From Purpureocillium takamizusanense (Eukaryota > Ascomycota > Sordariomycetes > Hypocreales > Ophiocordycipitaceae): a DNA stretch of 64,000 nucleotides. The notes under the pieces are model-generated. The model saw nothing but the letters and a program-made list of their open reading frames with translations. It was not told the origin of the DNA and made no database searches. Position numbers and translations under genes: made by a program. How positions within the stretch are numbered: the first letter of the stretch is position 1; each line of letters opens with the position of its first letter. Positions 1 through 24,786 of the stretch are shown here, in pieces. The DNA is taken from assembly GCF_022605165.1 (NCBI RefSeq), contig NC_063078.1:1-64000 (forward strand). Reading direction: 5' to 3'.

Positions 1-10
1 ATAAATATTT

Positions 11-93
11 AAATAATTTTATTTAAAGTAAGTTTAATATTTATTATAGATTTACTTTAGTAATTATTAAACTTACTTTAAATAAAATTATTT
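11..93. repeat. palindromic AT repeat, copy 1 (longest)
   Basis: A perfect 29-nt inverted repeat, 11-39 against 65-93, with a 25-nt spacer. The stem core is TAAAGTAAGTTTAATA and its complement. The same core recurs in five further palindromes, all inside the two AT-rich blocks. Confidence 0.8.
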
Positions 94-166
94 AACTATT
101 ATATTTATTTTTTATATTATCTATAGATTATTCTTAGGCTATATAAATAATCCTTTAAATATTTAT

Positions 167-222
167 AACTTAAGTTTAATAATTATTAAGGGCAATACTT
201 AATAATTATTAAACTTAGTTTA
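167..222. repeat. palindromic AT repeat, copy 2
   Basis: Inverted arms at about 167-190 and 198-222 around a GGCAATA-type loop. They share the AAGTTTAATAATTATTAAG arm with copies 3 and 6, with one or two mismatches. Confidence 0.7.
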
Positions 223-819
223 TAAAATACTCTTTTAAATATTTATATTATTTATATATTAATATATTATTATTTAAAGGCTAGAAATAATATATTTATA
301 TTAATAATGTAATAAATAATAAAATTAATTAATAAGTTAATAATAATATACTTTTTAAATAATTTAACCTTTATTTATATATTAATATAAGTATTATATT
401 ATAAATAATATTATAATTATAATAATAATAATATAATTAATTTAGTTAAGTAAAAGAGATAATAGTTATATTAATTATTAAGCTATATTTATTATTATAA
501 ATATAAATTAAATTAAAGCTTAAAGATCTTAGATAATAAGATATAAGTAAGTTATATAAAAATATCCTTTATATATAGTAATTATATAACTATTAGTCTT
601 AGTTAATTAAGATCTTATAATTTTATAATTAATTTATATTAAAGAAGTATAAGTATAAATACTAAAGATTATAATAATAAAATAGGTTATAATATTAAGA
701 TAGGGTATAAAAGCTATATTACTATATAAGTATTTTACTATACTTTAATAATTTAATATTTTCCGAAATTAGAATGTTTAAAGACTTAAAAAGAACTTTT
801 GTTTAAAAGTACGAGATGC

Positions 820-2216
820 TTACTCCTCGTTTACCTTACGGTAAAACGCTATCGGCAGAGCCGGGTTACGTAAGGCATAACGCTCTCGACATATAATATA
901 TGCCAAGAGTATCCGATGTTGCCGCGTCAATAGGCCATAGTCCGCCTTATCCACCCAGTCCTTAAGGTCGTCGGCTAGCTTAGAGCTCTGGGCATTAGCC
1001 TCGAGAACGCGAGTAATCTCCTCGCGCGCCTTATTGCGCTCCTTTATAAAGTTACGACACACCACAGAGAGGTTCAGCCTAGTGGCACCCTCGAATGCCT
1101 CACCTAGGGGCGCCAAAAAGTCCATGTTAGGCTTGACGGAGGTGGTCGGGTCAAAGGTGGCACCCAGCTCGGCGGCCAAAAAGCAGTCGCTGAGCGGAAC
1201 GGGCTTGCCAGAGTATAGATGGGTGGCCCACTCGACGAGCACCTTCCAAGCCCGACACAAAACGTCCCGATCGACGGAGCTGCGCACGTTGGCCTCGGCC
1301 TCCGGCGCAAAGTCTACCGTGACAGTCGCCATGGGCTTGTGAAACAGCACACAATTGCCAAAGCGGAAGATGAGCCGCGAGTCAATGAGCATGCCACGAG
1401 AGTAGCCAATCATGGCGCCGTTCCTGACACCAAGATAGTCGCGGACGAGAGCGCGCGGCACGGCAATCTCGAACGCGGCCGTATTGGGTGGCTCGAAGAA
1501 CCCGGCGCAGTCAGCGGCGCACACGGACCAAAACCACTTGCGGCGCTCCTCGGCCTTATCCTTGCCCCGGGCGGTCAACTGGGCGTCGACCAGGGTGATG
1601 CGCTCCATCGATGCCGTTAAGAGCTCTATATCCAGAGCGTCTCTCAGGGCACCCGCCGCCTGTCGGTTGCGGACGAACCTGGCCTCCATCTCCCGCCGTC
1701 TGTCCTCGGTAAACTCGGTGGCCTCTGGGCGCATATACATGTCCCAACGCCACTGCTGGTATAGACTCGAGTAGCCGTGGTCGCGCGGGTGGAACAGGTA
1801 TTCGCCTGGGGGAGGGCTTGGGAACGGCCACTCGGGAGGATCCTCCACGCCTTGGACTATAAATGACTATTAGCCTACTATGCCGCGCAAATGAATGTGA
1901 AAATGTCAAGTAAGGCGTGGGTGCACTCACAGAACAGGTCCCAGAGCCTGCGTTCGGCTCGGTACCGCAGGTCCGCCGTGGAGATGCCCTTGTGTCTGTC
2001 CTCTCGGTACCATGAGAGGCAAGCAAAGATGTATGCATGCTCTTGCATCGTCGAAAACTCGAGAAAGTCACATTTGGGCTCTGCCCAGTGAAAAAACTTC
2101 ATGATGTGCGCTCCACGCTTCGCCGCATCGCGCCAGTCATCCAACATGAACTCATCCTCAAATCGCTCGCATGGCCTCTCGGGCGAGCAGTACTCGCGGT
2201 AGTTGACGGGAGGCAT
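820..2216 (-). CDS. two-exon protein of unknown function (island gene A)
   Basis: I do not recognise this 440-residue protein. Exon 1 (2216-1931) and exon 2 (1856-820) join across a 74-nt intron with donor GTGAGT, a GGCTAATAG branch-like site and acceptor TATAG; the phases match. I chose the ATG at 2216 because the preceding 150 nt are CA-rich like the other leaders in this island. The frame stays open up to an ATG at 2372, which would give 492 residues. The N-terminal part is rich in Tyr, Trp, Cys and acidic residues; the C-terminal part is helical with basic patches and no visible motif. The stop lies about 45 nt from the AT-rich block. It follows the zinc-knuckle gene on the same strand. 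It is the only island gene in which I can see an intron. Confidence 0.7.
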
Positions 2217-2428
2217 GTTGGCATTTATGATGGGGTTGGCGTCGCTGCTGTTGATGCTGTATCGTGGTCGAGGCACTTGGTCGTGGTGAAGCGCGTGGCG
2301 ATGAGCAGCATAGCAGCCGGAGCGTTCAGGAGTCACGTGAGGGCAGCAGGAAAGAAGAGAATAGAAGTCCATCGAACATATAACATGAAGTCCAAGGGGA
2401 TTTAACTATAGGAGCCATACGTAGGTAT

Positions 2429-3364
2429 CTACTCGGTGCCATCGGAATCCCACGCGTCACCCCTGGCCCTATAACGCGCATCGGCCGCGTCGACGGCCGC
2501 CGATGCCTCCGTAGCCACCCTCGCCGCCGCCGCAGCCCTGGCGGCGTAGACGGCCTCGATCTGCCGGTAGTGACCTATGGCGCGCCGGTCTTCCGGGAGT
2601 CGAGACGAATCCAGGTGCTCGTCGTAGTCGACAACTCTACGGCACCAGGCCTCGCAGTGCCGCCGCATATCCTCGCGCACCGACTCCGCCGACCAGGGAC
2701 AGCCGCGGACTATAATGCCCCTTTCGAGTGCGAGCCAGAAGAGCCTATCGGGCACGCTCTGGTCCACCATGGCGAGCGGCGGCAGCCTATCCCGCTCCGT
2801 GAACACCACGCGCACCTGGTTCGCCACGTCCATGCCCCTGAAGATCCGACACTCGTCGACAAAGTGCCGAGTGTCGTTGCAAATGCTGCACGCATCCAGC
2901 CAGCCCTTGCGCGGACACGCATGCATGCACTGCCGGGCAGTATGGTCCTCCCCCGGGCATACGGCGCATATGAACAGCGACCGAGGAGTCCCCTCTTCGC
3001 GCGCACCCACGGGCCGCTGGGCCCAAGTCGTAGTGTTTCCGAGGCCACGTGCGCCCGTCGCAGCCAGGCTCTGCTCGGCACTTGAAGCACCTGTATTGAC
3101 ACGAGCGGCATCGATACGTGCCGCCTCCCAACGCGACATGGAGGGCCCAGCCAGAGAGGCCGATGCAGCTAGTGCAAGGCCCCTTCTGGCGTCCTCCACG
3201 ACTATGGCCCGGGCACGCTCAGCAAGTGTTGGAGGACGAGATTCTGTAGAACTGCTGCCGCCCTGAAGTGTCATATTGCGAGGTCGTAGCGTGGTTGGTG
3301 TACTTGGCCGATTCTCCGTTGCGCGCGGGCTATCTAGAGTGTGATACTCGCGAGTGTTGGCCAT
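2429..3364 (-). CDS. double CCHC zinc-knuckle protein (island gene B)
   Basis: A 311-residue protein beginning MANTREYHTL. Two consecutive zinc knuckles of the exact form CX2CX4HX4C lie at about residues 131-145 (C-AV-C-PGED-H-TARQ-C) and 158-172 (C-SI-C-NDTR-H-FVDE-C). This is the retroviral-nucleocapsid/CCHC fold that binds single-stranded RNA or DNA. The N-terminus is Ser/Thr/Pro-rich and probably disordered; the C-terminus is Ala/Arg-rich and helical. No retrotransposon Gag, protease or reverse transcriptase surrounds it, so a Gag origin is not supported. It is divergent from the AT-hook gene, and its stop lies about 210 nt from the chosen start of gene A, a tight spacing that could allow read-through. 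Family assignment beyond zinc knuckle is not possible. Confidence 0.75.
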   Translation of the reverse strand: MANTREYHTLDSPRATENRPSTPTTLRPRNMTLQGGSSSTESRPPTLAERARAIVVEDARRGLALAASASLAGPSMSRWEAARIDAARVNTGASSAEQSLAATGARGLGNTTTWAQRPVGAREEGTPRSLFICAVCPGEDHTARQCMHACPRKGWLDACSICNDTRHFVDECRIFRGMDVANQVRVVFTERDRLPPLAMVDQSVPDRLFWLALERGIIVRGCPWSAESVREDMRRHCEAWCRRVVDYDEHLDSSRLPEDRRAIGHYRQIEAVYAARAAAAARVATEASAAVDAADARYRARGDAWDSDGTE

Positions 3365-3681
3365 GCCTAAAGGCCAGCCGGTGAATGCAAACGCAAAGAC
3401 AATCGCCCGCGTAGCAACGTACTAAGCCAGCGTCAGGCCTCTGTTCACTACCCGGCAACGACCGACGTAGAGCAGCCTTGGTTCTCAGGCGTCTACAGCG
3501 CAGAGCCCTGAACAGCTGCGCACAGTTGCTCCGCCCAGCCCTTGCCGCACCGTTCACGTCAAAACAAGGCAACGCAACAAGACTTGTGGCAACCCAACTC
3601 TCGACTCGACAACGACAGACTGTGACCAGAGGTCTACATCACCGCACAACGTCAACTACAGTCGTCTATACGTATTCATCG
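3365..3681. promoter_or_regulatory. divergent promoter of island genes B and C
   Basis: A 317-nt gap between head-to-head start codons. The side towards gene C is CA-rich and purine-poor, a typical fungal 5' leader. An open frame runs back through it to 3478 but has no ATG before 3682. No TATA box or known operator is evident. Confidence 0.4.
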
Positions 3682-6570
3682 ATGAGTTCCAGCTACGGAG
3701 CAGGACAAGGTGGGCGTGGTGGCCGCCGTGGCCGCCCCCCCACAAAGAAAGGAAAATTGACCGCCGGTCGTGCTGAAAAGCGACCCCGAGGGCGACCGCG
3801 CAAGGATCAGCAGGCCCACCCTCAGAGTTCGGTACAGGTCTCCCTGCCCGGCGTCATCGGCGCCGATGACTACGAGGCCATGGAGGATCAGCCCGATGAA
3901 GAGGAGCAGCAGCAGCAGCAGCCGCCGCAGCAGGAAGAGGCAGAGGAAGAGGAGGAAGATCAGGAGGCCCCTCCCCCGAAGCGTCGCCGTGGACGGCCAC
4001 GCAAGGAAGAGCAGTTACAGAGGGATTCAAGCCCCTCGATTGTATTTGCGCAGAGCGCCAACTCGGACGGGGAGGACGAAGAATTTCGAGAGGGCACCCT
4101 CGCCGGTAAACGTGCCAGCCGGGCCGCCCGACGCACCGCACAGCGTGAGGAAGAGATGGAAATTCCCGGAGCCGCCGTCGCCGCCCCCAGGATCGGCAGA
4201 TTCGAACGGATGATGCGAGAGAGCTGGGCCGGCGCTACCGACGACGGACTCGAAAGGGCGGTAGCCTACTACAAGAGGGCCAGGCCGTCGCTGGCGTTCC
4301 CCCGGAGGCAGCTTATCGACAGCATGATCGGTCCCAGTCAGCCCGCGATGCGCACAGGCTGGACCCAGGCCTTGGAGGACGAGATACAGGCGCAGTGGGA
4401 TGCGTCGGACGAGAAGAGGTCGCTGGAGGCGGCATCCTGGGTGGAGCGCGTCACCGCGTTGTGGAAGGCCAGCCTGCAGCTATTGCGCTGCTCGCCGGTG
4501 GCCATCGTGTCGCCGGCGTACAACCTGTGGGTGCAGGCCTCTAACCCGGGCGAGGTCTTCTGGACCGTAGCCTTTAGCGAGGCCTTGACCCTCCTGGTTG
4601 CCAATCCCGTCTGGCGCGGCAACAAGGCCCTGCTCAGGCGCGCCATCCAGCTCGCCGTCATCTGCCGCACCGACAACAGGGCCAGCTGGACCATGGAGCA
4701 GCCCGAGATGTGCGGCGTCATTGCCGCCATGGCACGTCTCTTCTCCGTGGGTAGCCGCCCGCATGCCCCAAAATACTGGATCGAAAAGGCCTTTGAGGAG
4801 CTTCCCGAGGGCAAGGTGGCATGCCCGGAAGCCTGCTTCCTGCGCCACCTCGCCGGCATTTGCACGCCCAAGCGGCCACAGAGTGCCGCGTCATCGCAGT
4901 TTGTCGTACAGAAGAAGGATCTAGTAAAGATCGCCGAGGCTATCGAGACATTCGGCGAGGGCTTCTATCCGTCAACGGGCAGCGTGTCGGCTATATACTA
5001 TGCCTACCTAGCTACCCGCTCGGGACTCACGGCTCCTATAGGAGAGGCCGAAACCAAGGCGTTTCACGAACAGGCTTGGAAGCACGAGATGCGCCGGGCC
5101 AAACGCCGACAGCTCGGTCTACGGTTCGACGACGCCGCTATGGCACATGCACGGGACGGCCCTATTCTCGTGGCCGACGACCCTTTGCCCGAGGCCAACG
5201 ACCCTTTGCCCGTGGCCGACGACTCCATGCCAGTGGCGGACCTTGACACCGGCGTGGTGATAACAGATGAGCCCATGCCCGACCTGCCAGTGCGGGAGCC
5301 GAAGCCCGCGCACGACATGGAAGAAGACTTGTACGGAGCATCGCCTTTGGTTTCCAAAGGCCAAGACTCAAGCGGTGCACCTCTGGTTTTCCCCGACATT
5401 CCGCCTCTGGACCTGGGCCATAGGGACGCCAGGTCCTGGCTGCCGTCTGGCCTGATGACCATGCAGGAGATTGACCAGGAGCTCGGCGGCGACGACGGAT
5501 ATCTCGGCGGCGGCGCGAGCAACGGCTCCTCGCCCGATAGAGAGCTAGGGGAAGAGCAGGCCGGAGCCGAGCAACAGCCGAGCCCCGAGATGGAAGTAGC
5601 AGAGACGCCTGGCCTGGATACCTGGGAGACCGTCGACGGCGACAACCACACCTCGCTGCTGGAGGCGAAGCATGACGGCGAGAGCACGGCAGATACACCC
5701 GGCGATACGGATCCGGACTCTGGCGATAAGCCAGTGCTCGACGAGTCGCGAGCGCCCAGCGTGCTCCTTGGCCAAATGTCTCCCACGCCTGCAGCCGCCG
5801 CCGCCGCCGCTGCCGCCGACGACGACAAAGACTGCGGCATGTTGCAAAGGGGCGACGAGTTCGTAGTTGCCTCGGAGGAAGATGCTGCCGCTGCTGGTAA
5901 TGGTGCCGGCGACGGCGACGACGACGCCAAAGACTGCGACATGTTACAGAGGGACGACGAGTTCGTGGTTGCCGCAGAGAAAGATGCCGCTGCCGCCGCC
6001 GCCGCCGCGACTCCCATGGGCCTCGTTGGCTATTCCGCAGGCCCGCGGGGTACGGAGACGACAGCGCCGCCGACCGGCCCTTCGACCCAACCGGGCGCTG
6101 CATGTGCGGTCGTGACGGAGTCTTCCTCGTCGGTGTCGGCCGAGCCCCAACAGGCCTCCGCGCGAATGGACATTCCCCGTCGCCCGCTGACCTTTGGTGC
6201 CAGGGAGGCCATAGCCACCGCCAACCCTCCCGGTGCCTCGTCTGGCTCGAGTCACTCGCAATCGTCGAGCGCAGCCGTGAGAGGCGCTCTGCCTCATCCC
6301 GGTCCGCCGCCACCCCGCCCTCCCCCTTCAGAGCACATGCAAGGCCAGAGCGGCGAGCTCTCCTTGCCCGTTGTCGTGACCGCGGCGTCAGAGGACCACG
6401 GAGACGGAGACGGAGTCTGGGTCAACGCGCTGGATCACTGGCGCCATAATAGGCCCGCACACGGTACAGAGGCGTATCGCTCCCTCCCGACCGAGGACTT
6501 GGAGCATGAACTCCTGGCCGAGTTGTTAGAGATGCCGCCCATTGGCCCCCTACAGTTTCAGCAGGAGTAG
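3682..6570 (+). CDS. AT-hook acidic protein (island gene C)
   Basis: A 962-residue protein from the ATG at 3682, the first ATG in its frame. Three AT-hook cores (RGRPP, RGRPRKD, RGRPRKE) lie within about the first 110 residues, mixed with poly-Gln/Glu tracts, suggesting minor-groove DNA binding and nuclear location. A folded central region (about residues 180-500, DNA 4220-5120) contains a segment with PVWRGN, AIQLAVICRT and a following Trp that is shared with island gene D. The C-terminal half is low-complexity and acidic with poly-Ala runs. It includes a duplicated unit (DNA about 5812-5890 and 5918-6000) with MLQR and DEFVVA repeated. No intron is needed. The function is unknown; a chromatin- or DNA-associated role is inferred only from the AT-hooks. 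Confidence 0.8.
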   Translation: MSSSYGAGQGGRGGRRGRPPTKKGKLTAGRAEKRPRGRPRKDQQAHPQSSVQVSLPGVIGADDYEAMEDQPDEEEQQQQQPPQQEEAEEEEEDQEAPPPKRRRGRPRKEEQLQRDSSPSIVFAQSANSDGEDEEFREGTLAGKRASRAARRTAQREEEMEIPGAAVAAPRIGRFERMMRESWAGATDDGLERAVAYYKRARPSLAFPRRQLIDSMIGPSQPAMRTGWTQALEDEIQAQWDASDEKRSLEAASWVERVTALWKASLQLLRCSPVAIVSPAYNLWVQASNPGEVFWTVAFSEALTLLVANPVWRGNKALLRRAIQLAVICRTDNRASWTMEQPEMCGVIAAMARLFSVGSRPHAPKYWIEKAFEELPEGKVACPEACFLRHLAGICTPKRPQSAASSQFVVQKKDLVKIAEAIETFGEGFYPSTGSVSAIYYAYLATRSGLTAPIGEAETKAFHEQAWKHEMRRAKRRQLGLRFDDAAMAHARDGPILVADDPLPEANDPLPVADDSMPVADLDTGVVITDEPMPDLPVREPKPAHDMEEDLYGASPLVSKGQDSSGAPLVFPDIPPLDLGHRDARSWLPSGLMTMQEIDQELGGDDGYLGGGASNGSSPDRELGEEQAGAEQQPSPEMEVAETPGLDTWETVDGDNHTSLLEAKHDGESTADTPGDTDPDSGDKPVLDESRAPSVLLGQMSPTPAAAAAAAAADDDKDCGMLQRGDEFVVASEEDAAAAGNGAGDGDDDAKDCDMLQRDDEFVVAAEKDAAAAAAAATPMGLVGYSAGPRGTETTAPPTGPSTQPGAACAVVTESSSSVSAEPQQASARMDIPRRPLTFGAREAIATANPPGASSGSSHSQSSSAAVRGALPHPGPPPPRPPPSEHMQGQSGELSLPVVVTAASEDHGDGDGVWVNALDHWRHNRPAHGTEAYRSLPTEDLEHELLAELLEMPPIGPLQFQQE

Positions 6571-7756
6571 GTAGTTGGTATATATCTATACATGTAAAGT
6601 GCTGGCCGCGTAAATACATGTACTCTGTCCACCCTAGGCACGTGCAATTATGTTGGGACCAGGGCACACTGTGGGTTTAACCGCCCCCCGAACAGTGATC
6701 GGGCCGCGGCCCGAGTTTTATTCCTTGTGTGTATGCCATGTAGCTAGATAGATTATCAACGGCGGCAGCACATGGACCGCTCCATAAATTGCGTGTTGTT
6801 CTAATGGTTGAAATAGAGCCGCATGGGTCGCTTATAATTAGATTAGACTATATCGGCGCCCCATACGCACGTGGCCCCGCGAAAGGCTAGCCCGGCCATC
6901 GTGGCCAACCACAGGCGCAGGACCAAAACACTCGCATCCGTGCAGTGTGAGTCGCACGCGCAGGCCAGCGCAATGCGGCATCCCTTTCACAGCCATAAGG
7001 CCTTCAGCAGGTCACGGAATCCACACAGCAAAATGCCCCCCGGTCGGCACTCTTTGGCACGGTCAGGGGCGTGAATGATCCTGGGGCAAGGTCCTGTAAA
7101 AGCCCTGTCAGTATCACTATCGGCGGCGCCAACTGATCCGATTTTGTACCGATGAGTACACGCTAAAATTCGACCCCGGCGCCTCACCTCATTGGTCTAC
7201 ATCCCTGCAAGTGACCAGCCGAAGGCCTTATGGCTGTCAAAGGGATTGGACTGCATCAGTGCTTTATTTGAGCGGCGGCGGCAGGTCAGTTTACAAGAGG
7301 GCCAGTTTGAGCCGATGCAGGAAGGCCAACCCGACTGTACGATTGACTGCTGGACTGACTGCTGGATTGACTGCTGGCTTAACTGCTAGCTTGACTAATT
7401 GCTAGATTGACTCTTAAATTGACTGCCTGCTAGATTGACTGCTGGACTGACTGTTGAATGACTACATGTATTGGATTGACTGCTGGATTAAACTGCCTGC
7501 TTCATTGACTGCCCGTTTGGACGACTCGTATGAAAGGGCCCAGTTCTCATTGCCAATAGCTCTTTTCGAGGGCGAAAGGAACTGGCACTAAACGTGTGGC
7601 ATCACGTGAGGTCTATTGTTCGCGTGAGTCGTCGCGTCTGGTGCAACAAGGCAAACGAACGGACGGTCCCAAGTCCAGGGCAGATTTTTCCTCCTGCAAC
7701 CCGACACGTTTCCTACCTACCCACCAGACACGCACTACATCGACACAGACACAGTC
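6571..7756. other. intergenic region between genes C and D
   Basis: No supportable gene. The frames at 6871-7405 are short and unlike their neighbours. The second half holds a degenerate minisatellite (7341-7520). The last 160 nt are CA-rich and look like the leader of gene D, with a palindromic E-box TCACGTGA at 7602-7609. The same E-box core occurs upstream of gene A at 2333-2340. Confidence 0.4.
7341..7520 (+). repeat. degenerate 12-bp minisatellite GATTGACTGCTG
   Basis: About 12-15 imperfect copies of GATTGACTGCTG, with variants such as GACTGACTGCTG, CTTGACTAATT and GATTGACTGCCTGC, run between genes C and D. Drift between copies indicates age. They lie about 240-400 nt before the start of gene D. 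Confidence 0.8.
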
Positions 7757-9157
7757 ATGGCACATCACTTGGAAAAGCGTGCGAGGATGGGCGAATGCGA
7801 GCAGGCCTCTCATGTAGACCTTGTCGGCCCCTATATCAACCACCTCCAAACGGCCCGGCCCCCGATCGCCGACGACGAGTACCTACTGGACCAGCTTGGA
7901 GTGGTGGACTTGCAGTTTGACGATGACTGGACCCAGGAGGAGGAGGACAGGGTCCTCTCGCAGTGGGTGGGGAGCGCGGACTCGGTCGCTCTAAAGGCAT
8001 ATGCACTTTGCAACCTAGGTAAGCCGATGAGCGACCTTTGGCGGATCACGGCACACGTCATGCGGCGCACGCCAGTCAACATCATATCGCCTGGCTTTGG
8101 GCTTCGTTACCTGGCCCCGCTCGGCAGAGGCGCCTGCTGGACTCCGAGCTTTTCGATCGCGCTGGGCAAGCTCGTTGTCCATCCCGTGTGGGAGTGCAAT
8201 TACGAGAACCTCGTGAGGGCCATCCAGTTTGCCGTGGCGTGCCGCACGCAAGAACGAGGATGTTGGAACTTCCTGCGGCATAGGTTTTGCCCGGTGCAAG
8301 AGGAAATGACGTACGTCTTCGCCGCCGGCAAGGCCGGGCGGACGCCCGAGGTAGTCTTGGAGATGTGCATCCGAGGACGGCAGGTCAGCGAGGACCTGGC
8401 CTTTCTCAGACACCTTGGCCCGTATGCCGTTTCCCGAGGCCATGGCCAGCTGGGCGCATCGTCTGCCTCGGCCGGCAACGAAACCGAGACCCGCACGTTG
8501 AGCGTACGCTTCAGTGACCTGGAGATCATCCTCGAGGCCCTCAACTCGTTCAAAGTCGTCGGAGTCCCCAGATATGCCCACTCGGATCTATACTACGCGG
8601 CGTACCTGCACGCCCCCAACATGCAGCCGCCCTTTTCCCGGGAACGAATCCTCGACATGTACGAGGCGGCGTGCCTGGACCAGCTACGGTTTGTCGCCAT
8701 GTGCAGCAAGGCCATGTCGGACAGCAGCTGTAACGTATCGGAACACGACAACCATTTTCTGCCGCAGGCTGCCGACCGAGACGTGACCCCGGCTATGGAG
8801 CGCCTGTTACTAGAGGCCACGGGTAACCCACAGCCCACGCAAGTTCCTCTTGGCGCGGATACCGTGTCGAGCCAAGCCTCTGATGTCCTCCCCGGCGCCA
8901 CACTTGAACTGAGCAGCATGTCCAGCGATGTCTCCGGAGAGTGCGGCGAGAGTGTAGGCTATCGTGAGCCGCTACCGGCTAGAGAGACGCTGGCGTCGCC
9001 CGCGCCTCCCACGGATGCTCCTGCTATCGGCATGACGGCGCCTGTCCCCGTGCAGGAGGACTCAAGCCAAGAACAGGGCGCCCGGCGTCCCGAGGGACTC
9101 ACCGACGAAATCCGCTTTCAGCGCAGAACCCGGGACCATTTGCTCAACTACTTGTAA
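7757..9157 (+). CDS. paralogue of the central domain of gene C (island gene D)
   Basis: A 466-residue protein from the ATG at 7757, with the CA-rich leader typical of this island. Residues of about 60-330 match the central region of gene C in order and spacing. Examples are WT.SFSIALGKLVVHPVW against WTVAFSEALTLLVANPVW, then RAIQFAVACRT against RAIQLAVICRT, then a Trp and later FLRHL and a YYAAYL/YYAYLA segment. It lacks the AT-hooks, the poly-Gln/Glu region and the long acidic tail. The C-terminal 130 residues are Ser/Pro-rich and probably disordered. No known enzymatic motif is visible. The pair suggests an ancient duplication within the island in which gene C gained, or gene D lost, the DNA-binding extension. 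Confidence 0.78.
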   Translation: MAHHLEKRARMGECEQASHVDLVGPYINHLQTARPPIADDEYLLDQLGVVDLQFDDDWTQEEEDRVLSQWVGSADSVALKAYALCNLGKPMSDLWRITAHVMRRTPVNIISPGFGLRYLAPLGRGACWTPSFSIALGKLVVHPVWECNYENLVRAIQFAVACRTQERGCWNFLRHRFCPVQEEMTYVFAAGKAGRTPEVVLEMCIRGRQVSEDLAFLRHLGPYAVSRGHGQLGASSASAGNETETRTLSVRFSDLEIILEALNSFKVVGVPRYAHSDLYYAAYLHAPNMQPPFSRERILDMYEAACLDQLRFVAMCSKAMSDSSCNVSEHDNHFLPQAADRDVTPAMERLLLEATGNPQPTQVPLGADTVSSQASDVLPGATLELSSMSSDVSGECGESVGYREPLPARETLASPAPPTDAPAIGMTAPVPVQEDSSQEQGARRPEGLTDEIRFQRRTRDHLLNYL

Positions 9158-12700: not shown

Positions 12701-12989
12701 CGTGTCGTGTAACTGTGCAATTGTGCGCGGTTGGCGATGACTGGTGTGTTGGTGTTTGAGGAACGTAACATGGGGGGAGTCTGCGGGGGTGTGGGAAACT
12801 CTTAGTGGGCCCGCCTGCCAGCTGTCGCCAGCTGTGAGTTAACGGTAAAAGTAGCATAAAGGCGCGACTAAAGCGCCCCGCTTTTTTAAATAAGCCTAAT
12901 ATTAAATATAATAATTATAAGAGTATATAAATAAAATATTAATATAAAGTAATAATAGTCTATTTATTAATAAAGTTTCTTATATTATA

Positions 12990-13101
12990 ATTTATATTTA
13001 TATTATATTTATATTATATTTATATTATATTTATATTATATTTATATTATATTTATATTATATTTATATTATATTTATATTATATTTATATTATATTTAT
13101 T
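12990..13101 (+). repeat. 11-bp tandem repeat ATTATATTTAT
   Basis: About ten nearly perfect head-to-tail copies of ATTATATTTAT. The regularity contrasts with the surrounding RIP-like sequence, so the array probably expanded after the mutation. Confidence 0.8.
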
Positions 13102-13312
13102 TTATAATAATAAAATAGCTACTTAAATAATTTAAGTAGCTAATTAAATAATTAATATAAAGGGCATTAATAATTTTATTAATATAATATTATTTTAAAG
13201 ATTTAGCTTTTAATTATAAAATAGCTTATAATTATATTATATATTTTTCTTTATATTCTTATAAATATTATATTAATATATTAATTATAAATATAAATAA
13301 TATAATACTTTC

Positions 13313-13369
13313 TAAAGTAAGTTTAATAATTACTAAAGTACCTCCTTAATAATTATTAAACTTACTTTA
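13313..13369. repeat. palindromic AT repeat, copy 3
   Basis: Left arm TAAAGTAAGTTTAATAATTA and right arm TAATTATTAAACTTACTTTA around a short loop. The core matches copy 1. Confidence 0.75.
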
Positions 13370-13453: not shown

Positions 13454-13512
13454 ATAAAGTAAGTTTAATATTTATAAGGAAGGTACTTTAGTAATTATTA
13501 AACTTACTTTAA
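13454..13512. repeat. palindromic AT repeat, copy 4
   Basis: Arms ATAAAGTAAGTTTAATA and TATTAAACTTACTTTAA flank a spacer of about 25 nt containing GGAAGG. Confidence 0.75.
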
Positions 13513-14202: not shown

Positions 14203-14259
14203 TAAAGTAAGTTTAATATTTATTAAGGTTATCCTTTAGTAATTATTAAACTTAGTTTA
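14203..14259. repeat. palindromic AT repeat, copy 5
   Basis: The same family. The right arm carries one substitution (AAACTTAGTTTA), also present in copy 2. Confidence 0.7.
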
Positions 14260-14335
14260 TTTAATAATATATTAAAATATATTATTAATTTATATAATAT
14301 ATATATAAGTAGTAATATTAATTAATAATATTTTA

Positions 14336-14391
14336 TAAAGTAAGTTTAATAATTATATAGAGAAATCCTTAATAAATATTAAACTTACTTT
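14336..14391. repeat. palindromic AT repeat, copy 6
   Basis: Left arm TAAAGTAAGTTTAATAATTA and right arm AATATTAAACTTACTTTTA. The loop contains GAGAAATCC. Confidence 0.7.
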
Positions 14392-14897
14392 TAATAGCTT
14401 AGTTTTATAATTTATATAGCTTTAAAATACTTTTAATATATTATTAAAAATATACTTATATTTATTTAAATTATATTTAAAGAAAAATTTATATTTTAAA
14501 TTTATATTAAATATATTAAATACTTTATTTATATACTTTATATAATTATTAAATATAAAATAAAATTAACTTTATAATTAATTTTAATTTATTATTATAG
14601 CTTAATTATTAATAAATTTTATAAGTTAATAAAAATTAATATTATAATATATTTTAAATAAGAGTTATATTCTTATATAATATATAAAGTAATAAAAGTA
14701 TAATTTTAATAGGATTTTAATAGCTAGAACTAAACTTTTTAAACCTACTATAGTAATGTTTAGTGTTACTCTTTTTTAAACGCGAGTTAGCAAACGGTCT
14801 TAGAGGAAAACACGGCTCGGCAACACAACTATCTATGCAGACGCAACGCATTCAACGCACACTGACGAGCTCAACTCTACGACAAGACAGCAGCACC

Positions 14898-17204: not shown

Positions 17205-18514
17205 GTGAGCACGGAGGTAGTATAGATTAGTCTCAATGTACGTGTCTTGATGGTATGAACTACGAAGTGCACTTAAGCTCGTGACCGCTGCCATCCCGGT
17301 TCCCTGTATTCTCCACGTTCCCTGTATTCTCCGCGGCGGGACGCGACGACGTAGCCAATCGGCTCGAGACTGAGAGCCACGGGCGACCCACATGGCTCGG
17401 GAGGAACCTTGAATCTAAATACGGCCCTGGGTGTTGCTTGCCTTGGCCCTTGAGTCTTGGCCAGTCTTTGACCCGGTGAGCCACATTGCGATGCTCGAGC
17501 ATGCCGGCGTTGCCTGCCACGCCCACCCTCCTGACCATGAATGCAGGCGCAGACCCTAACTACGCCCTCGTCTCACCGCGCTGCAGCTTCCAAGGCTTTC
17601 GAAGCCGCCATTGCCGGTCTCGAGCCCAAGGTTCTCTCCGATCAGGGCGTGCTAGTCGGCTCTCAAATCTCATTCAAGGAGGCGCACGAGCGCCTCGAGG
17701 AATTTGATATCCTTATCATCCTTGGCGGCAACTCGCAGGAGGTGCTGGACAAGGAGCTCGAGCCTCTTGGCCTGATCAACGACTTTGCCGAGCTCCAGAA
17801 GAAGGACAGGGGCGCTGTCAGGCCTTGTGAAAACGGTCGGAAGCGTCTCGGTTCGGGCGGGCGGGCAATACGAGAGGTACATCTCCCTTTCCATGGTATA
17901 TACTAACACAGGCTCGCAGGGCGGGCGGGGAGGCTACACAGTACCGTGGGCCAAGCGGCGACGAGAGAGCTCAGCATCGGGAGAAGGCTGCAAGGGAGTG
18001 AACACGGACGGCAGGGACCAGCGTATCTCGTCATACAGATAGCGAAGGCGCCGGGCGAGGCAACGGTCGAGGCAACTGTGGAAGCGACCGGACGATCTGC
18101 GTGCTGGGCGAGGCAACGGCCAAAGCAGCTGTGGAAGCGATTGGATGGGTGAAGCGCCTGCAGAGAGACACCGCGTGAATTTTGGTCCTTGACTGCCCTT
18201 TGCATCTGCTGCCCTGTTGGCTCGACTGCCCGTTTGCTGGATGACTAAGTGTATAAAGTACGTACCTGGCAATGCACGTGGTACCTAAAGGAATAGCCTT
18301 TTGCGGAATAATGTCCTTCTCTCATTGGTCAGCGACGTCACAGTCTTGACCGCCACGGCAGGAAGGGTCTGGCATGGGCCCCCCGGTCCCCTGGACTTGG
18401 CGTTTCCCTTTGTCGATCCACATCCCCGTTTTCCTTGTCGATCCACACCTCACCCCAAACTCGACGTGCCCTCAAAGACTTCAACCAGTACGCTTCACGT
18501 TTACGACTTTTAAG
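17205..18514. other. intergenic region between genes F and G with gene debris
   Basis: About 1.3 kb holding a DJ-1/PfpI-like fragment (separate entry), a doublet of TTCCCTGTATTCTCC near 17300-17330, and an imperfect 52-nt tandem duplication at about 18053-18091 and 18105-18143 (GGGCGAGGCAACGG and TGTGGAAGCGA shared). The last 100 nt before the start of gene G are C-rich leader. Confidence 0.5.
17541..17820 (+). pseudogene. DJ-1/PfpI (class I glutamine amidotransferase-like) fragment
   Basis: The translated segment contains EEFDILIILGGNSQEVLDK followed by EPLGLINDFAELQKKD. This is the characteristic middle part of fungal DJ-1/PfpI family proteins, which normally continues into a nucleophilic-Cys elbow (a VCTG-type motif). 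Here the frame runs into unrelated residues and stops at 17906 without that elbow. The N-terminal part is degraded. The fragment is about 90 residues against a family length of about 230. It is probably a broken host-gene remnant lying between the two helicase-like genes. Confidence 0.6.
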
Positions 18515-20908
18515 ATGAGCGCACAGGGGGACCATGATGCGTGGAGAGAGGTGGCAGCTGAGGTGGCGGGGTGGACCATGACGGCGTGCGAGAGCACGCG
18601 TGGACTCGCAGAAGTGAGCATGGCCCAGGTGCGTGGCGAGTCGGGCTCCGGCAAGACGACATACCTGCCGTGGATGCTCTGGTCGGCGGTGACGGAGAAG
18701 GACCCGGACACTCTGGTGTTATGGGCGGGCGAGGAGGTCGAGGCCGGGCGCCTGCTGTGCCTCCGGGACGGCGAGACGGACCACGCGCGACGGCGGTGGC
18801 ACGGGGACGAGACGACCAGGGTGACCGGCCGAAGGGACAAGGCCAAGTTCCCGCTGGGCATCTCGTCGTTTAGCGCTGCGGGCCGCTTGTTCGCAGCTCA
18901 CGAGAAAGAGTACGTGCATACGAGCCGGACCAAGTGGGGGACGATCAGCGAGACGCAGCGACTGCCGGGGCGCGTGATGCTGGTGGTGGACACGCAGCCG
19001 GAAATGCCGGGCGACATGGTGTTCCTGCTCGTGGCGGCCCTGGCGTGGGCGCGGCCGGCGCGCGGAGGGACCAACGCCCGACGGCTCTCCATTGTGCTCG
19101 TGTCGTCCGAGTTCCTGCCGAGCAACGTGGAGGAGGTCGCCGCCCGCTACGAGGCTGCCACTCGTGCGCCGGTGCCGAGGCGGACGTTCGACTTGCCCGC
19201 TCGGCACGCGGGACACGTCAAGGTTCGACGCCTGCGCAGTAACGAGACGGCGAGGAGGGTCACGGATCTGTGCGCCGAGAGCCTTGCAGAAGGTCCCGTG
19301 GCCATCATCAACTTTACCGGCGAGAACTGGCTGTGCGACCGACTCAGGGCCTTCTCGCTGCCCGGGCTCAGCCGCGTGTCGGACGTGGCGCGGCCGATCG
19401 TTGAGGACGCCTCCGACGGCGCGGCGCGAGACGACCGGGCGAAGCAGGCGTGGAAGAACCTGGACGCGGCCATGACGGCCAAGGGCGAGTCGGGGTGCAC
19501 CCTCTTCCACTTGGACCCGACCTGGCGAGTGCCGGCGGCGTTGCGGGGATTCAGGGGCGTGCACGTCCTGGCGCCGCAGTCGGCGGCCCGCGTGATACGC
19601 GACGGCGTCTGGGCTCCCGAGGTCACGGCCGACATGTCTCTATACCGAGACGACAGGAAGTACGTGCTTTCTTGGGGGCGGAGGGCCTTTGGCCTTATGG
19701 GATCGGGCCTGCCGAATGTCACGGTTCACATCGTGACGACGGGCGACGAAGACACCGACGACCACGACGACGACCACGTGGAGGAGGTGCGCAAATACCT
19801 GGACGCCGCCACCGCTCGGAGGCGAGTTCATATACATGGCCCTTGGCTGGACGGTTTCATCGTTATGCTCGGCAGCCTCGGCGAGCGAATTTGGAACCCG
19901 GTGCACGTGGTGGCGGCACTGGCATATGCCAACGCCATGATCGACTCCGAGGAACGCCTGAAGCGCCTCTACGGAATACGGTGGAGGCGCGGCCAAGGCG
20001 GTTCGACGGCGGCCATTCCCGACGTCGACATGGGCCGGCACCAGGCCCATCTGTTGCGGGTCTGCCTCGTCCTGTTTCGATACGATATGCGCCTGGCGTG
20101 GCTGGTTGCCTCGGACCCCGTCACGCCTGACGTAGTAACGCTCAAGGCCATGATCGCGTGCATGGTCTCCTCGGGCCTGAAAGAGATGGTTCTCGTCCGC
20201 AACAGCCCGCAAGACCACAGGAATATGTTATGGACGGGGCTCGCGCGGGTGGGAGGTGAGCTAAGCGCCTGGGTCAACATGCCCTTTGCCGACCTGTGGG
20301 TTCGCCTGGCCTTTTGGCAACTGGGATCGGAGTGCGGCTATACGCACTCGGGCGCCGTGCCCGGCCACGCGCAGGCGATACAGCCTAAGTTCTTCCCGTC
20401 TGGAGGCAAGATGTTGGTGGGCCTCGGCATCGCCGCCTGCAAGCGCGCGGACCTGGCCCTGCAGGTGGTCCGCGCCCAGCTTCAGGACCGCGGCGTCGTC
20501 CTGCGACGCCCTCGGTGTCGTGGCGAGCCACTGCTCGTGGCGGCCCGGGACCTGGAGAGGCTGCAGGTTCAGCTGCTAGAGGCGTTTCCCTACCATATTT
20601 CGGCAGTGACCTCGAGGCAGCTTGCGGCTCGTGACGAAGACGTCAAGGGCCTCTGTTTCTCGACGAGGATTGAGACGTGGTTCCTTCCCGATGCGTTACC
20701 CGTGGCCAGGGCGTCGCAAGCGGACGCCGAGGCCAGCATCGGTCTCATCTTCTGCCACGAGCTATACAGGGATGCTACCGAGTGCTCCCTCGTTGCCCAC
20801 GACTGGACCGTAATCCCCGTCGACGTGGTCCGCAAGATGCTCCAGGCCCATGGAGCTTCCATGTCGTCGCTACCCGACCTAGTGCGCCGCAGGCCCAACA
20901 TATATTAA
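18515..20908 (+). CDS. DExH-helicase-like protein with intact P-loop (island gene G)
   Basis: A 797-residue protein from the ATG at 18515. An in-frame ATG at 18374 exists, but the stretch between looks like leader. Residues 41-48 form a Walker A motif, GESGSGKT, followed by TYLPW exactly as in DEAH/DExH RNA helicases. A TLVLWAGEEVEA strand resembles motif Ia. About 110 residues after the P-loop, VMLVVDTQPEM occupies the motif II position but lacks the usual D-E-x-H. A further 35 residues on, IVLVSSEF sits where motif III (S-A-T) belongs. The spacing therefore fits a superfamily 2 core, but the catalytic Glu/His are replaced, so it may bind NTP without normal hydrolysis. The C-terminal half has no recognised domain but matches gene F. 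Single exon. Confidence 0.78.
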   Translation: MSAQGDHDAWREVAAEVAGWTMTACESTRGLAEVSMAQVRGESGSGKTTYLPWMLWSAVTEKDPDTLVLWAGEEVEAGRLLCLRDGETDHARRRWHGDETTRVTGRRDKAKFPLGISSFSAAGRLFAAHEKEYVHTSRTKWGTISETQRLPGRVMLVVDTQPEMPGDMVFLLVAALAWARPARGGTNARRLSIVLVSSEFLPSNVEEVAARYEAATRAPVPRRTFDLPARHAGHVKVRRLRSNETARRVTDLCAESLAEGPVAIINFTGENWLCDRLRAFSLPGLSRVSDVARPIVEDASDGAARDDRAKQAWKNLDAAMTAKGESGCTLFHLDPTWRVPAALRGFRGVHVLAPQSAARVIRDGVWAPEVTADMSLYRDDRKYVLSWGRRAFGLMGSGLPNVTVHIVTTGDEDTDDHDDDHVEEVRKYLDAATARRRVHIHGPWLDGFIVMLGSLGERIWNPVHVVAALAYANAMIDSEERLKRLYGIRWRRGQGGSTAAIPDVDMGRHQAHLLRVCLVLFRYDMRLAWLVASDPVTPDVVTLKAMIACMVSSGLKEMVLVRNSPQDHRNMLWTGLARVGGELSAWVNMPFADLWVRLAFWQLGSECGYTHSGAVPGHAQAIQPKFFPSGGKMLVGLGIAACKRADLALQVVRAQLQDRGVVLRRPRCRGEPLLVAARDLERLQVQLLEAFPYHISAVTSRQLAARDEDVKGLCFSTRIETWFLPDALPVARASQADAEASIGLIFCHELYRDATECSLVAHDWTVIPVDVVRKMLQAHGASMSSLPDLVRRRPNIY

Positions 20909-21332
20909 ACTTGGGCAATGCAGATTGTGTGTACGTATATATAGATTCTAAATGAAGTGATTCCGCAACGTCCATGTACGCCTACCGTCTTGAAACTGTC
21001 TACTACATGTCTACGTCTGCCGAGCCCGTCAAGACTCCATCTACGGTATATAGCAATGACCATCCCCGCTACTGCACGTAGACCGCGGTGGCTTCCTAGC
21101 GCGTAACCTACTAGTCTTAATAACCGCGCACACGGTCGGCTGGGAACTGGGCCATCGGCGCACCAAGAACGGCTCGGGGGTAGCAAGCAGGGACGCATAC
21201 ACACTCGTTGACCAGACCGTGAAGCAAAAGGTGATGTAGGCGTTCTATATACTACTACATACTACTCAGGTCCTTGGCCTCTTCGAGGCTGGGCGCATAG
21301 TCGGCATGGACCTGTCCCGTGTCTGTCGTCGG
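20909..21332. other. convergent intergenic region, genes G and H
   Basis: About 420 nt between two stop codons. No gene is seen. It presumably contains both 3' untranslated regions. Confidence 0.4.
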
Positions 21333-24239
21333 CTAATTGCCGCCTGCATCTGCGTCTCCATCGTCCTCACCCGAGTCGCTTGCGTCTTGGTCCGATAGCG
21401 CCCACGGCTCAGCGCCCTGGAGCTGTCGGACTTCGTGGGCCACCTGTACAAGTTCTCTCACCCAGAGATGTCCTCGTGCGTAGGAAGTCACCTGCTCGAC
21501 GGCAGTCCGCATGAAAGCCGTGGCCCAATCCAGGCCATTGACCAGGTTGGTCGCCATGGCCAAGAGGGCCGTCACCTGTCTGGCCCATTCGACGTTGTGT
21601 GCCGCCAGCTGTGTCCTACCAGGCCATTCTTCACCATCGATGATGTTCATTGCCTCGAGGCCAGCGAGTCGTGCGGCTATCCGGGGGACCAGAGGCGCCA
21701 CCTGCCCGAGGGAGTGTCCTCCGTCGGCGTTGGCTGGGTCCGCGGCCGAGGACGCCATGCTGTCGAGTCGGTCGACGTCAAACTTGACCGCGTTAATGCA
21801 GCGCTTGATGGCTTGGCGGACGCTGCGCGTGTCCCAGTCGTCCGACTCTCCGCCTTCCAGGAGGCGGGACACGCGGTCGTAGAGGTCCTTATGCCCCGTG
21901 TGAACGGTGCCAAGGCGAGGAAGCAAGAGGTCGTGGATCTTTCGAAGTGTCTCCTTTGAGACGCGGGTCGCCACTAGTAGGGAAGCGGTCTGGGGTACTC
22001 GCCGCGATCTGGCCCACACATCGTGCTTGGCCTTGTCCTTCTCGGCGTCCGTCATGACGACCCATTTGCTGAAATCAGGGGCGCCCACAACGGTGAGGCC
22101 CAGGTTGCGGTCCGTTGTCAACAGGAGGTCCTGGCCCTCTGGGGTAAATAGGCCCATGTGGGCAAGCATGGGCTTGTTTCGATACGACGCCGACATCATG
22201 GCCGCCTTGACGTCGGGCGCGATGGTCCTGCTTATAGCGATGAAGCGTTGTCCCGACGAGTTCACCAGGATGACATCGTCCAGAGCACTGTCGTCGTCCG
22301 CATCCTCGTCGGTGGCGCTCAGGTCCGCAATTGCCTCGGTGGGTGAAAAGATGGCAGGCCAGACGGGCCCCGCGACGCGGCCAAACCGACCATAGATGGT
22401 CTTTGGGCCCGGGGTGGACTCGTCGTAGAGGCTGGCGGGGTCGTCCAGTAGCTCCTGGGGCACGTCGAGGACCTCGCCGCCAAAGAAACACGTCTCCACG
22501 ACAAGGGCGGGCAGGACGGTGCTCTGGAAGGCGCCGCCTTCGCCAGAGCCCATGGCGCAGCGGTATGTCGGCAGTCCGTACGGGGGGAAGTAGCCAACGC
22601 CCAGGACGGCATGGATCGTCGGCGTGGGCGCGGGGAGGCTGTACGAGCCGTTAAAGGTGGGCGACGCGATGTGGCCGAGCATGGTGCCAGGGAGGGCGGG
22701 GAAACGGTAGTCGGCGTCGATGGTGCGGTGCCTGGACCCGATTCCGGCCATGGCCTGGCGTACGGTCGCCTCGTTGAGCATGCCCTCCTTGACCTGGAAG
22801 AGTCGGCCGCGGCGCAAGTCTTTGAGGTAGGCATGGTGGCAGAAGCGGAAGAAGTGGGGGTACTCGACCCAGTCCATGTAGTCGCTCAGGGCAAGCCAGT
22901 GGGACATGTAGACTAGGCAGACCTCGAGGCTCGGGACCGGCACCTCCCAGGCGCGCGACTCGTTGGCGGCAGCATTCGTCCAGGCACCGGCCGTGGCCGC
23001 CTTGATCTTGCTCGCAAACGGCTCCCTGCCGTAGTCCGTGGTGGCGAGGAGGTCAAAGTAGAGAAACAGCGCCAGGACCATGTAGTTTGCGCTCAGGAGA
23101 TCGTGTGGATGGGCCCTGGCGACCTGGGCCAGCAGTCGCCGGAGAGTCCGGGGGATAATCAGGAGTGCGAGCGGGGGGAAGTAGTGTAGCGCGCCCATGG
23201 GTCGCTTCTCGCCACGGCATACGGCCACGTCGCCGCTGGGCCTGCGTGGATCCGGAGCCCGGTTTCCGGGACCCTCTGGTCGAGACATGTCTGGGCGGCG
23301 GGACGGGTCGGCGGCCTGCAGCTCATGCGCCTTTGCCGCTTGGATGAACGCCAGGGGCTTGGGCCTGTTGCCGAAGCGAAGGGCCATGACGGACTCGGCA
23401 GAGCGCTCGGTGATCTTGTCGCGGCCTTCCAGGTCGCTTCCCTCGAGTAGTTGATAGACTTGTTGTCTGGTCAGGGGCTCCGTGGGCGCGGACGGCGTGT
23501 CGGCTTGCTCATCCCCCTCGGCGTCTCCCGCGTCCTCCCCGTCGTTGGGCCGCGGGCGCCGCGGCGCCATGGCCTTGTGCGTCTCGCGGGCAAGCTTCTT
23601 GAGTCGGCCGACGTTTCCGGGGACGGCTATGTCGTTGTACATGAGGATGTTTTGTCCCGTCAGCTGGGCCGTGTAGGCCGTCCGTATGTCGATGGCCTTG
23701 AGGTAGTCGCTCTCGGCGTGACGTGAGTTTTTGCCGCAGGCCTTGTACGAGAGAACGGCTGGCTCAAACGTAAAGACGCTGTTGCCGGCGATGAAGTGGG
23801 TTGCCAGCGAGTCGCCTTCCGGGTTGTCCTCGTCCTCCGGGTCCGTCGGCCGGAACCTCATGCGCTGGTGGAGGTTCGGCACGCCACTGGAAGGCTTGTC
23901 CTTCTCACGGAACCTGGGAAACTCGTACATGTTGCAAGCCCGCTTCACAAGACTGACTTGCTTCCAGTCATTGCGGGGACCGTGGACCGTGACCTTGTCG
24001 CCGTTTGGAGTGGTCCATTCGACCTGGCCGAGCAGTTCCACGCCATGTGCGCTCGTCAGAGACTGCGTGATAAACAAGCCCGTCTGTCCTTCTGGGATGT
24101 TGGAAAAGTCCGTGAGGACGATGCGGTCCGGATCGCGCTCGATAACGGCTCGGAGACCGGCCAAGTCGTCGTCACTCAAAAGCCTCCTCCCCTCTGGCAG
24201 GCCCGGGGTCTCGGGTCCCCTTGCGAGTTTGGGGGGCAT
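21333..24239 (-). CDS. 968-residue protein of unknown function (island gene H)
   Basis: A single-exon protein starting MPPKLARGPETPG. I recognise no family. There appear to be two folded regions. The N-terminal about 220 residues are beta-rich with well-spaced Gly/Pro. A long region of about 370-960 contains a Trp/Tyr/His-rich stretch (SDYMDWVEYPHFFRFCHHAYL) and helical segments. They are separated by a charged linker rich in Arg, Asp and Pro (residues about 230-350), and the protein ends in an acidic tail. There is no signal peptide, membrane segment, nucleotide-binding loop or zinc motif. The size, linker arrangement and lack of enzymatic motifs are compatible with a large structural protein, but nothing in the sequence proves that. 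It is convergent with gene G and closes the island on the right. Confidence 0.75.
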   Translation of the reverse strand: MPPKLARGPETPGLPEGRRLLSDDDLAGLRAVIERDPDRIVLTDFSNIPEGQTGLFITQSLTSAHGVELLGQVEWTTPNGDKVTVHGPRNDWKQVSLVKRACNMYEFPRFREKDKPSSGVPNLHQRMRFRPTDPEDEDNPEGDSLATHFIAGNSVFTFEPAVLSYKACGKNSRHAESDYLKAIDIRTAYTAQLTGQNILMYNDIAVPGNVGRLKKLARETHKAMAPRRPRPNDGEDAGDAEGDEQADTPSAPTEPLTRQQVYQLLEGSDLEGRDKITERSAESVMALRFGNRPKPLAFIQAAKAHELQAADPSRRPDMSRPEGPGNRAPDPRRPSGDVAVCRGEKRPMGALHYFPPLALLIIPRTLRRLLAQVARAHPHDLLSANYMVLALFLYFDLLATTDYGREPFASKIKAATAGAWTNAAANESRAWEVPVPSLEVCLVYMSHWLALSDYMDWVEYPHFFRFCHHAYLKDLRRGRLFQVKEGMLNEATVRQAMAGIGSRHRTIDADYRFPALPGTMLGHIASPTFNGSYSLPAPTPTIHAVLGVGYFPPYGLPTYRCAMGSGEGGAFQSTVLPALVVETCFFGGEVLDVPQELLDDPASLYDESTPGPKTIYGRFGRVAGPVWPAIFSPTEAIADLSATDEDADDDSALDDVILVNSSGQRFIAISRTIAPDVKAAMMSASYRNKPMLAHMGLFTPEGQDLLLTTDRNLGLTVVGAPDFSKWVVMTDAEKDKAKHDVWARSRRVPQTASLLVATRVSKETLRKIHDLLLPRLGTVHTGHKDLYDRVSRLLEGGESDDWDTRSVRQAIKRCINAVKFDVDRLDSMASSAADPANADGGHSLGQVAPLVPRIAARLAGLEAMNIIDGEEWPGRTQLAAHNVEWARQVTALLAMATNLVNGLDWATAFMRTAVEQVTSYARGHLWVRELVQVAHEVRQLQGAEPWALSDQDASDSGEDDGDADAGGN

Positions 24240-24786
24240 GTCGAGCGGGGCGGAGAGTCTTGTAGAGCAAGGCCTTTTGCCTATGACAGACTGGTGGATC
24301 GACTAGCCTCTGAAACAGGTCAGTAATGCAGATCCGGGTGTATTTTGCAGGTCGTATTGCCGTACCCGTGTGACGTCGCGGTTGGGGTCGTAGTCTTCTA
24401 GCGTCGTGAAGGCGTCCTCGCGAGCCGGAACCGACTGCCAGTCCCGCATTAGTTTCGTACTGCGACATGCCTTGCTCTGCCCGTTCGTGAAAGGCTGGGA
24501 CACTTGCCGCTTCGTCGTCAATGCGTTTTGCTTTCGAGGCAAGGTATGGCCAAGGACTGGAGAGGGGAGAGGGCGCTACATTCACATCGGCTAGGAACGA
24601 GCAATGGGCTTGCCCATCGAGTGCATGCGAGACCATCGGTAGATGTAGGCGGGTGGGCTATGTTCGGCCATGAATTCACAGGGCGCTGCGTGAAGAACAT
24701 TCTGGCATTTACTTCCGTTTACATCCTGACCCGCTACCGCTAAAGACTCGTGCTGTGAGGAGCCCTACAGGGGGATCATTTCCGCA
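24240..24786. other. leader/promoter of gene H and spacer
   Basis: About 550 nt without a supportable gene. The first part is presumably the leader of gene H; the rest separates it from the Old Yellow Enzyme remnant. Confidence 0.35.

Follow-up and report, generated by a model that had tools for sequence, protein, structure and literature searches.

The closest described counterparts of the locus analysed here, an island of predicted genes at the left end of contig C11 of the hypocrealean insect pathogen Purpureocillium takamizusanense, are Starships, whose captain is a DUF3435 tyrosine recombinase, and the AT-rich blocks marked by repeat-induced point mutation (RIP) in Trichoderma reesei. 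Starships, in the portions of the literature considered here, have accessory genes and a patchy distribution, and in both respects the island resembles them. For T. reesei QM6a, the sections of the cited study used here describe AT-rich RIP blocks that often partition gene clusters, and centromeres with repeats plus 37 putative genes (PMC5496416); for Aspergillus flavus, the corresponding sections trace AT-rich elements to transposition and RIP (PMC9910759). The stretch that we analysed, hereafter the window, comprises bases 1–64,000 of contig C11 (1,096,568 bp), and genome-wide searches covered the 35.57 Mb assembly of 14 contigs; the published genome is described as 35.6 Mb in 14 scaffolds with 11,855 genes (PMC9302088). 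We find that the window begins with eight large predicted genes without a recognised family (P1 and P3 to P9; positions 820–24239, that is, 0.8–24.3 kb), set among AT-rich blocks in which, as at the right end of contig C10, a 57-bp palindrome recurs. The island is real and unusual, and most likely lineage-restricted and of a known general kind. We favour, with somewhat better than even confidence, the view that it spans the left end of C11 and the right end of C10, that its likely mode of growth was the local duplication of a small gene module in DNA probably eroded by RIP, and that it is probably neither a virus nor a transposon.

Gene island and AT-rich blocks

Two AT-rich blocks lie in the window, one at the contig end (1–770, 10.5% GC) and one between the divergent genes P6 and P7 (12890–14750, 8.6% GC). 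Their composite RIP indices are 1.18 and 1.16, respectively, compared to −0.48 and −0.41 in gene DNA; overall, the index is 1.18, 1.16 and 1.10 in three AT blocks vs. −0.41 to −0.67 in three non-AT stretches. Very low GC combined with a positive composite RIP index, the mark of RIP-derived AT-rich blocks, was found in these blocks, and extreme indices were confined to them. An earlier note, made from the sequence of the window, had described eight large, mostly single-exon genes flanked and interrupted by RIP-like AT blocks. All eight genes were recovered, with the qualification that the leftmost, P1, is predicted to have two exons and 440 amino acids instead of a single open reading frame (ORF) of 306 amino acids. 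The RIP-like character of the blocks was borne out as well, as were their positions at the left end and in the interior, whereas the right side has no such block: GC is at least 51% in each 1-kb step from 15 to 64 kb, so that an AT block borders the island only at the contig end and another interrupts it inside. We set the right border at the last orphan gene, at 24.2 kb. Codon usage in the island is host-like, correlating at 0.60–0.94 with two other frames from the same genome that were pooled as the reference (P1 being represented by exon 2). Third-position GC is 69–83% across the eight genes when P1 is likewise represented by exon 2, and 68–83% in nine window frames (the two exon frames of P1 and the seven other genes).

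Because RIP blocks partition gene clusters in T. reesei, this setting is of a known kind, as far as the cited sections describe it: small gene groups are separated by blocks of at least 0.5 kb in which the RIP signature is strong (PMC5496416). The difference from the T. reesei blocks covered in those sections is the presence here of a palindrome almost private to the locus, together with linked paralogues without a known family. The inner block also contains an 11-bp tandem repeat, TTATATTTATA (12980–13106; 11.5 copies, 96% matches), that is far more regular than the AT sequence around it.

A palindrome nearly private to two contig ends

The 57-bp palindrome is common to the two AT blocks of C11 and the terminal AT block of C10. 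We identified nine copies, six in the window (24–80 and 166–222 in the terminal block; 13313–13369, 13455–13511, 14203–14259 and 14336–14392 in the inner block) and three on C10. The second arm begins exactly 29 bp after the first, one of the C10 copies having a weaker second arm, and the spacing of copies within blocks is 142 bp in three of the six steps, the others being 133, 294 and 748 bp. When one mismatch was allowed, a 27-base consensus matched each of the six copies in the window on both strands, compared to no match in 100 shuffles of the whole window, and the arm occurred 4–8 times in the AT blocks vs. a mean of 0.06–0.09 (maximum 2) after their letters were shuffled. Since the consensus was derived from the same copies, the shuffle result holds partly by construction, and the independent test is provided by the genome-wide searches. 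The exact 22-base pattern had four matches genome-wide, all four in the right end of C10 and the left end of C11. With one arm and at most one mismatch, 12 of the 15 genome-wide matches fell in these two ends, and the remaining three, on C2, C5 and C9, were single arms; when the arm was reversed as a control, no match was obtained genome-wide. Among seven other contig ends scanned, the arm was absent from six, and the left end of C13 had two weak unpaired arms. The palindromes are nearly private to this locus and are most likely the novel feature of the island, and their near-privacy is the strongest sign that the two contig ends belong to one locus.

Folded as DNA, the six copies in the window score well (z = −4.4 to −9.4). 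An RNA hairpin was considered and rejected: the nine copies show no covariation, 12 of the 24 pairs are invariant, and pairing is 89.4% vs. 90.7% in shuffles. Conservation of the arms in sequence without covariation points to a recent or maintained repeat and not to an RNA structure. No RNA families were found in positions 1–25000 of the window.

A parallel gene block at the end of contig C10

The last 8.6 kb of C10 contain a block that parallels the window, in which a CCHC gene, a relative of P5 and a coiled-coil gene are ordered and oriented as they are there. When the whole genome was searched with P5, one relative was found outside C11, 44% identical over residues 2–323 and located 7 kb from the right end of C10. 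Its divergent upstream neighbour is a relative of P3 (38% identity over 128 amino acids), the two linked genes lying at C10:1322923–1325774, and its convergent downstream neighbour is a coiled-coil gene in the position and on the strand of P6. A fourth gene (C10:1329267–1330298) is followed by AT DNA up to the contig end. By our arithmetic, with 11,855 genes, the chance that the sole other P5 relative adjoins one of five P3 relatives is ~0.001. An 11-mer, CGGGTAGTGAA, occurs in both divergent CCHC/P5-type promoters (window 3365–3681 and C10:1324132–1324595); its chance probability, ~0.07 by our arithmetic, makes it weak evidence.

Telomere repeats are present at the left end of C10 but absent from its right end and from both ends of C11. 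Telomere arrays were found on 11 of the 20 contig ends examined, and two ends begin in N; in this assembly, N runs open C7 and C12 (seen in positions 1–3000 of each, the stretch examined). The right end of C10 and the left end of C11 are probably one locus split by an assembly gap, their adjacency being inferred from sequence, and the left edge of the island, which the earlier note had left open, would then probably continue at the right end of C10.

Proteins of the island

None of the eight proteins reaches the cut-off of any Pfam model, in agreement with the earlier statement that no recognisable metabolic enzyme is among them. Sub-threshold Pfam matches are COX17 for P3 (E = 0.44), the adenovirus E1B 19K family for P7 (E = 0.12), Gag_p17 for P9 (E = 0.08), and nSTAND_NTPase5 (E = 0.016), FtsK (E = 0.021) and NACHT (E = 0.13) for P8. 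The matches in NCBIfam were limited to coiled-coil families for P6 and a single weak one for P4; PHROGs gave a single weak match, for exon 2 of P1, the exon by which P1 was represented in both scans. For the P5 family, a search of PDB gave no match.

P1 (820–2216, minus strand) is predicted from sequence to comprise exons 2216–1931 and 1856–820, separated by a 74-bp GT-AG intron (1930–1857) whose GTGAGT donor and ATAG acceptor connect two open frames; exon 2 has no paralogue. P3 (2429–3364, minus strand, 311 amino acids) carries two perfect CX2CX4HX4C units at residues 133–172. The copy on C10 likewise has two, and in this both resemble CCHC zinc-knuckle proteins; they differ in that neither reaches the cut-off of a Pfam model and that no reverse-transcriptase family was found among the island proteins scanned. 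P4 (3682–6570, plus strand, 962 amino acids) combines three RGRP AT-hook cores in a basic setting, identified by pattern match, with a P5-family domain, and P5 (7757–9157, plus strand, 466 amino acids) is a paralogue of this central domain (32% identity, E = 3 × 10−24). P6 (9368–12700, minus strand, 1110 amino acids) is a coiled coil that contains internal repeats of 93 bp (31 amino acids) and, at residue 985, a KRQR basic patch. P7 (14835–17204, plus strand, 789 amino acids) and P8 (18374–20908, plus strand, 844 amino acids as ORF) are also paralogues (29% identity, E = 2 × 10−16), with a P-loop, GESGSGKT, at residue 88 of P8 and none in P7; the database entry of P8 has 762 amino acids and starts at residue 83 of the ORF. 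P9 (21333–24239, minus strand, 968 amino acids as ORF) corresponds to JDV02_009923, annotated with 1017 amino acids. The double CCHC knuckle, the three AT-hooks, the coiled coil with a candidate nuclear localization signal and the two paralogue pairs that had been noticed beforehand are thus all present, and the AT-hook, CCHC and coiled-coil products may act in the nucleus on nucleic acid.

The P-loop helicase-like core proposed earlier fared differently in its two parts: the P-loop of P8 is secure, whereas the likeness to helicases is confined to motif I. In the usual naming of DEAH-box helicase motifs, the P8 stretch GESGSGKTTYLP is similar to motif I in a DEAH protein of the host (9 of 17 residues identical, E = 0.006 in BLASTP, motif I only), and this motif is absent from P7. 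P8 differs from DEAH-box helicases in that motif II was not seen by eye (VVDTQPE stands there instead), that a helicase profile search gave no match, and that its best Pfam hints are other P-loop families; PDB sequence searches gave no support for a DEAH helicase in either P7 or P8. A degenerate DEAH helicase was tried as a candidate for both proteins and rejected: the hhalign probability was 1.6, with motif I only, and global alignments compared to shuffles gave z = 0.9 for P8 (0.2 without the P-loop) and z = 2.0 for P7, four controls ranging from −1.8 to 0.8. By eye, later motifs aligned well and motifs II and III lay equally far apart, but the statistical tests gave no support, and a possible degenerate DEAH-type core in P8 is not significant. 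Structure prediction followed by Foldseek, which had been suggested as a check, gave two unusable models with a mean predicted local distance difference test (pLDDT) of 32–34 (31.5 for P8 and 33.6 for the P5 family), and Foldseek with the P8 model returned 0 matches at E ≤ 0.001.

Some smaller features lie between the genes. Between P4 and P5, a 36-bp inverted repeat (6980–7246; 92% complementary, arms 195 bp apart) looks like the footprint of a miniature inverted-repeat transposable element, with no obvious target duplication by eye, and imperfect 12-bp tandem repeats, GATTGACTGCTG, occur upstream of P5 (7329–7523). In the gap between P7 and P8, an open stretch (17571–17837) resembles by eye a fragment of an ordinary enzyme gene and has no Pfam match.

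Relatives elsewhere and lineage restriction

Large protein-set searches covered P4/P5, P7/P8 and P9, each scoring ~8,000 candidates that shared most words with the query. Besides entries of P. takamizusanense itself, one relative was found for P4/P5 and one for P9, and the P7/P8 search yielded only this window's own P8 entry among the candidates scored. An orthologue of P4, PCL_06650, is present in Purpureocillium lilacinum (67% identity over 356 amino acids, in a nine-sequence cluster) and has three RGRP cores; a literature search on PCL_06650 found no paper. The middle region of P9 occurs twice in one Colletotrichum gloeosporioides protein (E = 2 × 10−7), and its C-terminal domain stands alone on C13 (E = 3 × 10−16). 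A broken DUF3435 captain-like frame lies ~4.7 kb from this lone P9-domain gene (C13:149086–149802 and 154539–155417). Relatives of P3 were found at five further genomic sites, one of them the C10 end; the four others are dispersed, with no P5-type gene within ~10 kb on each side.

Of the earlier proposal of a lineage-specific nuclear complex inherited as a unit, lineage restriction is supported and inheritance as a unit is weakened. The three families searched appear lineage-restricted among the candidates scored, and two of the genes are side by side at the C10 end, whereas the dispersed CCHC relatives have no P5 neighbours and the P9 domain is found on its own. As to co-occurrence in other fungi, P. 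lilacinum gave only the P4 orthologue, no P5, P8 or P9 orthologue being found there among the ~8,000 word-sharing candidates of each search. Relatives are thus few and patchy, and in these searches the gene set was not seen to travel together.

Origin of the island

Ordinary genes lie on both sides of the locus: fatty acid hydroxylase, Sos7 and LANC-like genes at 29–60 kb on the C11 flank, and glyoxalase and rhamnose mutarotase genes on the C10 flank; of the 10 frames from the two sides supplied to Pfam, 5 had a family. The Sos7 gene, which encodes a kinetochore protein, is at 38228–39163 (Pfam E = 5 × 10−31), 14 kb to the right of the island. DUF3435 (PF11917) had eight matches in the genome, six of them over the cut-off, all on C1, C2 and C13 and none on C10 or C11, the DNA between the two contig ends being unseen; the absence of a captain, previously reported for the window, thereby extends to all of C10 and C11, and a Starship was rejected on this basis. 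Six scans of viral_contigs found no relative (P6 was outside the scans, and distant relatives could be missed), no capsid, polymerase or packaging family was over the Pfam cut-off, and none appeared in NCBIfam or PHROGs beyond the coiled-coil and weak matches given above; an endogenised DNA virus was rejected as well. No second full copy of the island was found in the genome, P4 and P7 being covered via their paralogues. Compared to Starships, as far as the literature considered here describes them, the island lacks a DUF3435 match on either contig, and neither element ends nor a second copy were seen. The mobile or virus-derived origin that the earlier note had entertained is thus not upheld. 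Ordinary genes on both sides, together with the absence of a captain, a viral relative and a second copy, favour local duplication over acquisition.

The duplicated module would have consisted of divergent CCHC and P5-type genes followed by a convergent coiled-coil gene. Long identical repeats would have been eroded to AT blocks by RIP, and the gene copies would have escaped it, presumably because they had diverged to 30–44% identity. AT-hooks bind the AT-rich minor groove, which makes P4 a natural candidate binder of the blocks and palindromes; a plausible role of P4 would be to bind both and shape the local chromatin, with the knuckle, coiled-coil and P-loop proteins as putative partners.

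Several observations weigh against local growth of a single split island. No overlap exists between the right end of C10 and the left end of C11, and the similarity of their AT blocks, 64–70% in alignments, is no higher than that among the AT ends of other contigs (64–74%). The coiled coil of C10 has no detectable homology to P6, and the fourth C10 gene has no significant match to the island proteins compared, so that only two genes prove the shared block; the 44% identity of the P5 relative indicates that it is old, and the C10 and C11 neighbours may have originated independently. A stricter palindrome scan that was blind to sequence recovered only four of the nine copies and picked up one unrelated palindrome, located at the right end of C11. 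The right border is loose, the next frame (25244–25777) having no Pfam match and the first recognised gene lying at 29.2 kb. Lineage restriction is subject to the scope of the searches: P1, P3, P6 and the fourth C10 gene were outside the large protein-set search, and, with candidates limited by shared words and P5's own entry not listed by the P4/P5 search, relatives may have been missed.

Among the alternatives, we take most seriously, while still considering it unlikely, that the right end of C10 and the left end of C11 are the two sides of a centromere, in which case the genes would be pericentromeric and would have no common purpose. In line with this explanation, the two ends consist of RIP-saturated AT DNA and carry no telomere repeats, but the inner AT block is just 1.9 kb long, the palindrome occurs at a single locus although a centromere repeat should recur on several chromosomes, and the right ends of C9 and C11 and the left end of C13 likewise end in AT DNA. 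Were the island the decayed form of a large mobile or virus-derived element, whose own repeats or ends would survive as the palindromes, this would account for orphan proteins and AT blocks next to palindromes almost confined to the locus, for the scarcity and patchiness of relatives, and for the captain-like frame near the lone P9-domain gene on C13, and the sub-threshold matches of P9 to Gag_p17 and of P7 to adenovirus E1B 19K point the same way. We nevertheless consider such an element improbable, given that C10 and C11 have no captain match, that the six viral_contigs scans gave no relative, that no integrase, polymerase or capsid family was found with Pfam at its cut-off, NCBIfam or PHROGs, and that there is neither a second full copy in the genome nor foreign codon usage.

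The products might also be parts of a single nuclear complex whose targets would be the AT blocks and palindromes of the island itself. The AT-hooks, the CCHC knuckle, the basic-patch coiled coil and the P-loop protein, all encoded beside almost private palindromes, are consistent with this, as is the retention of three RGRP cores in the P. lilacinum orthologue of P4; the four CCHC relatives without P5 neighbours, the lack of covariation in the palindromes beyond plain conservation, and the absence of P5, P8 and P9 orthologues among the P. lilacinum candidates scored argue against it. Judged from sequence features, such a complex is doubtful, if slightly more credible than the decayed element. 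The least probable possibility, which we raise only tentatively, is a self-referring chromatin element, in which the putative complex, with AT-hook, knuckle, coiled-coil and ATPase parts encoded by the island, would bind the palindromes of the island and so maintain or spread its own locus; this would make the island a gene-borne element of heterochromatin or segregation and set it apart from Starships and viruses.

The island is a well-delimited case in which the persistence of large new gene families in RIP-active genomes can be tested, and through the near-private palindrome one can ask whether AT DNA made by RIP is recognised by proteins encoded next to it. If the binding of these sequences by the island's proteins proves false, the locus would still clearly exemplify a lineage-restricted gene island, one that an assembly gap has probably divided; if it proves true, the island would represent a type of gene-borne chromatin element for which we found no description in the portions of the literature considered here.

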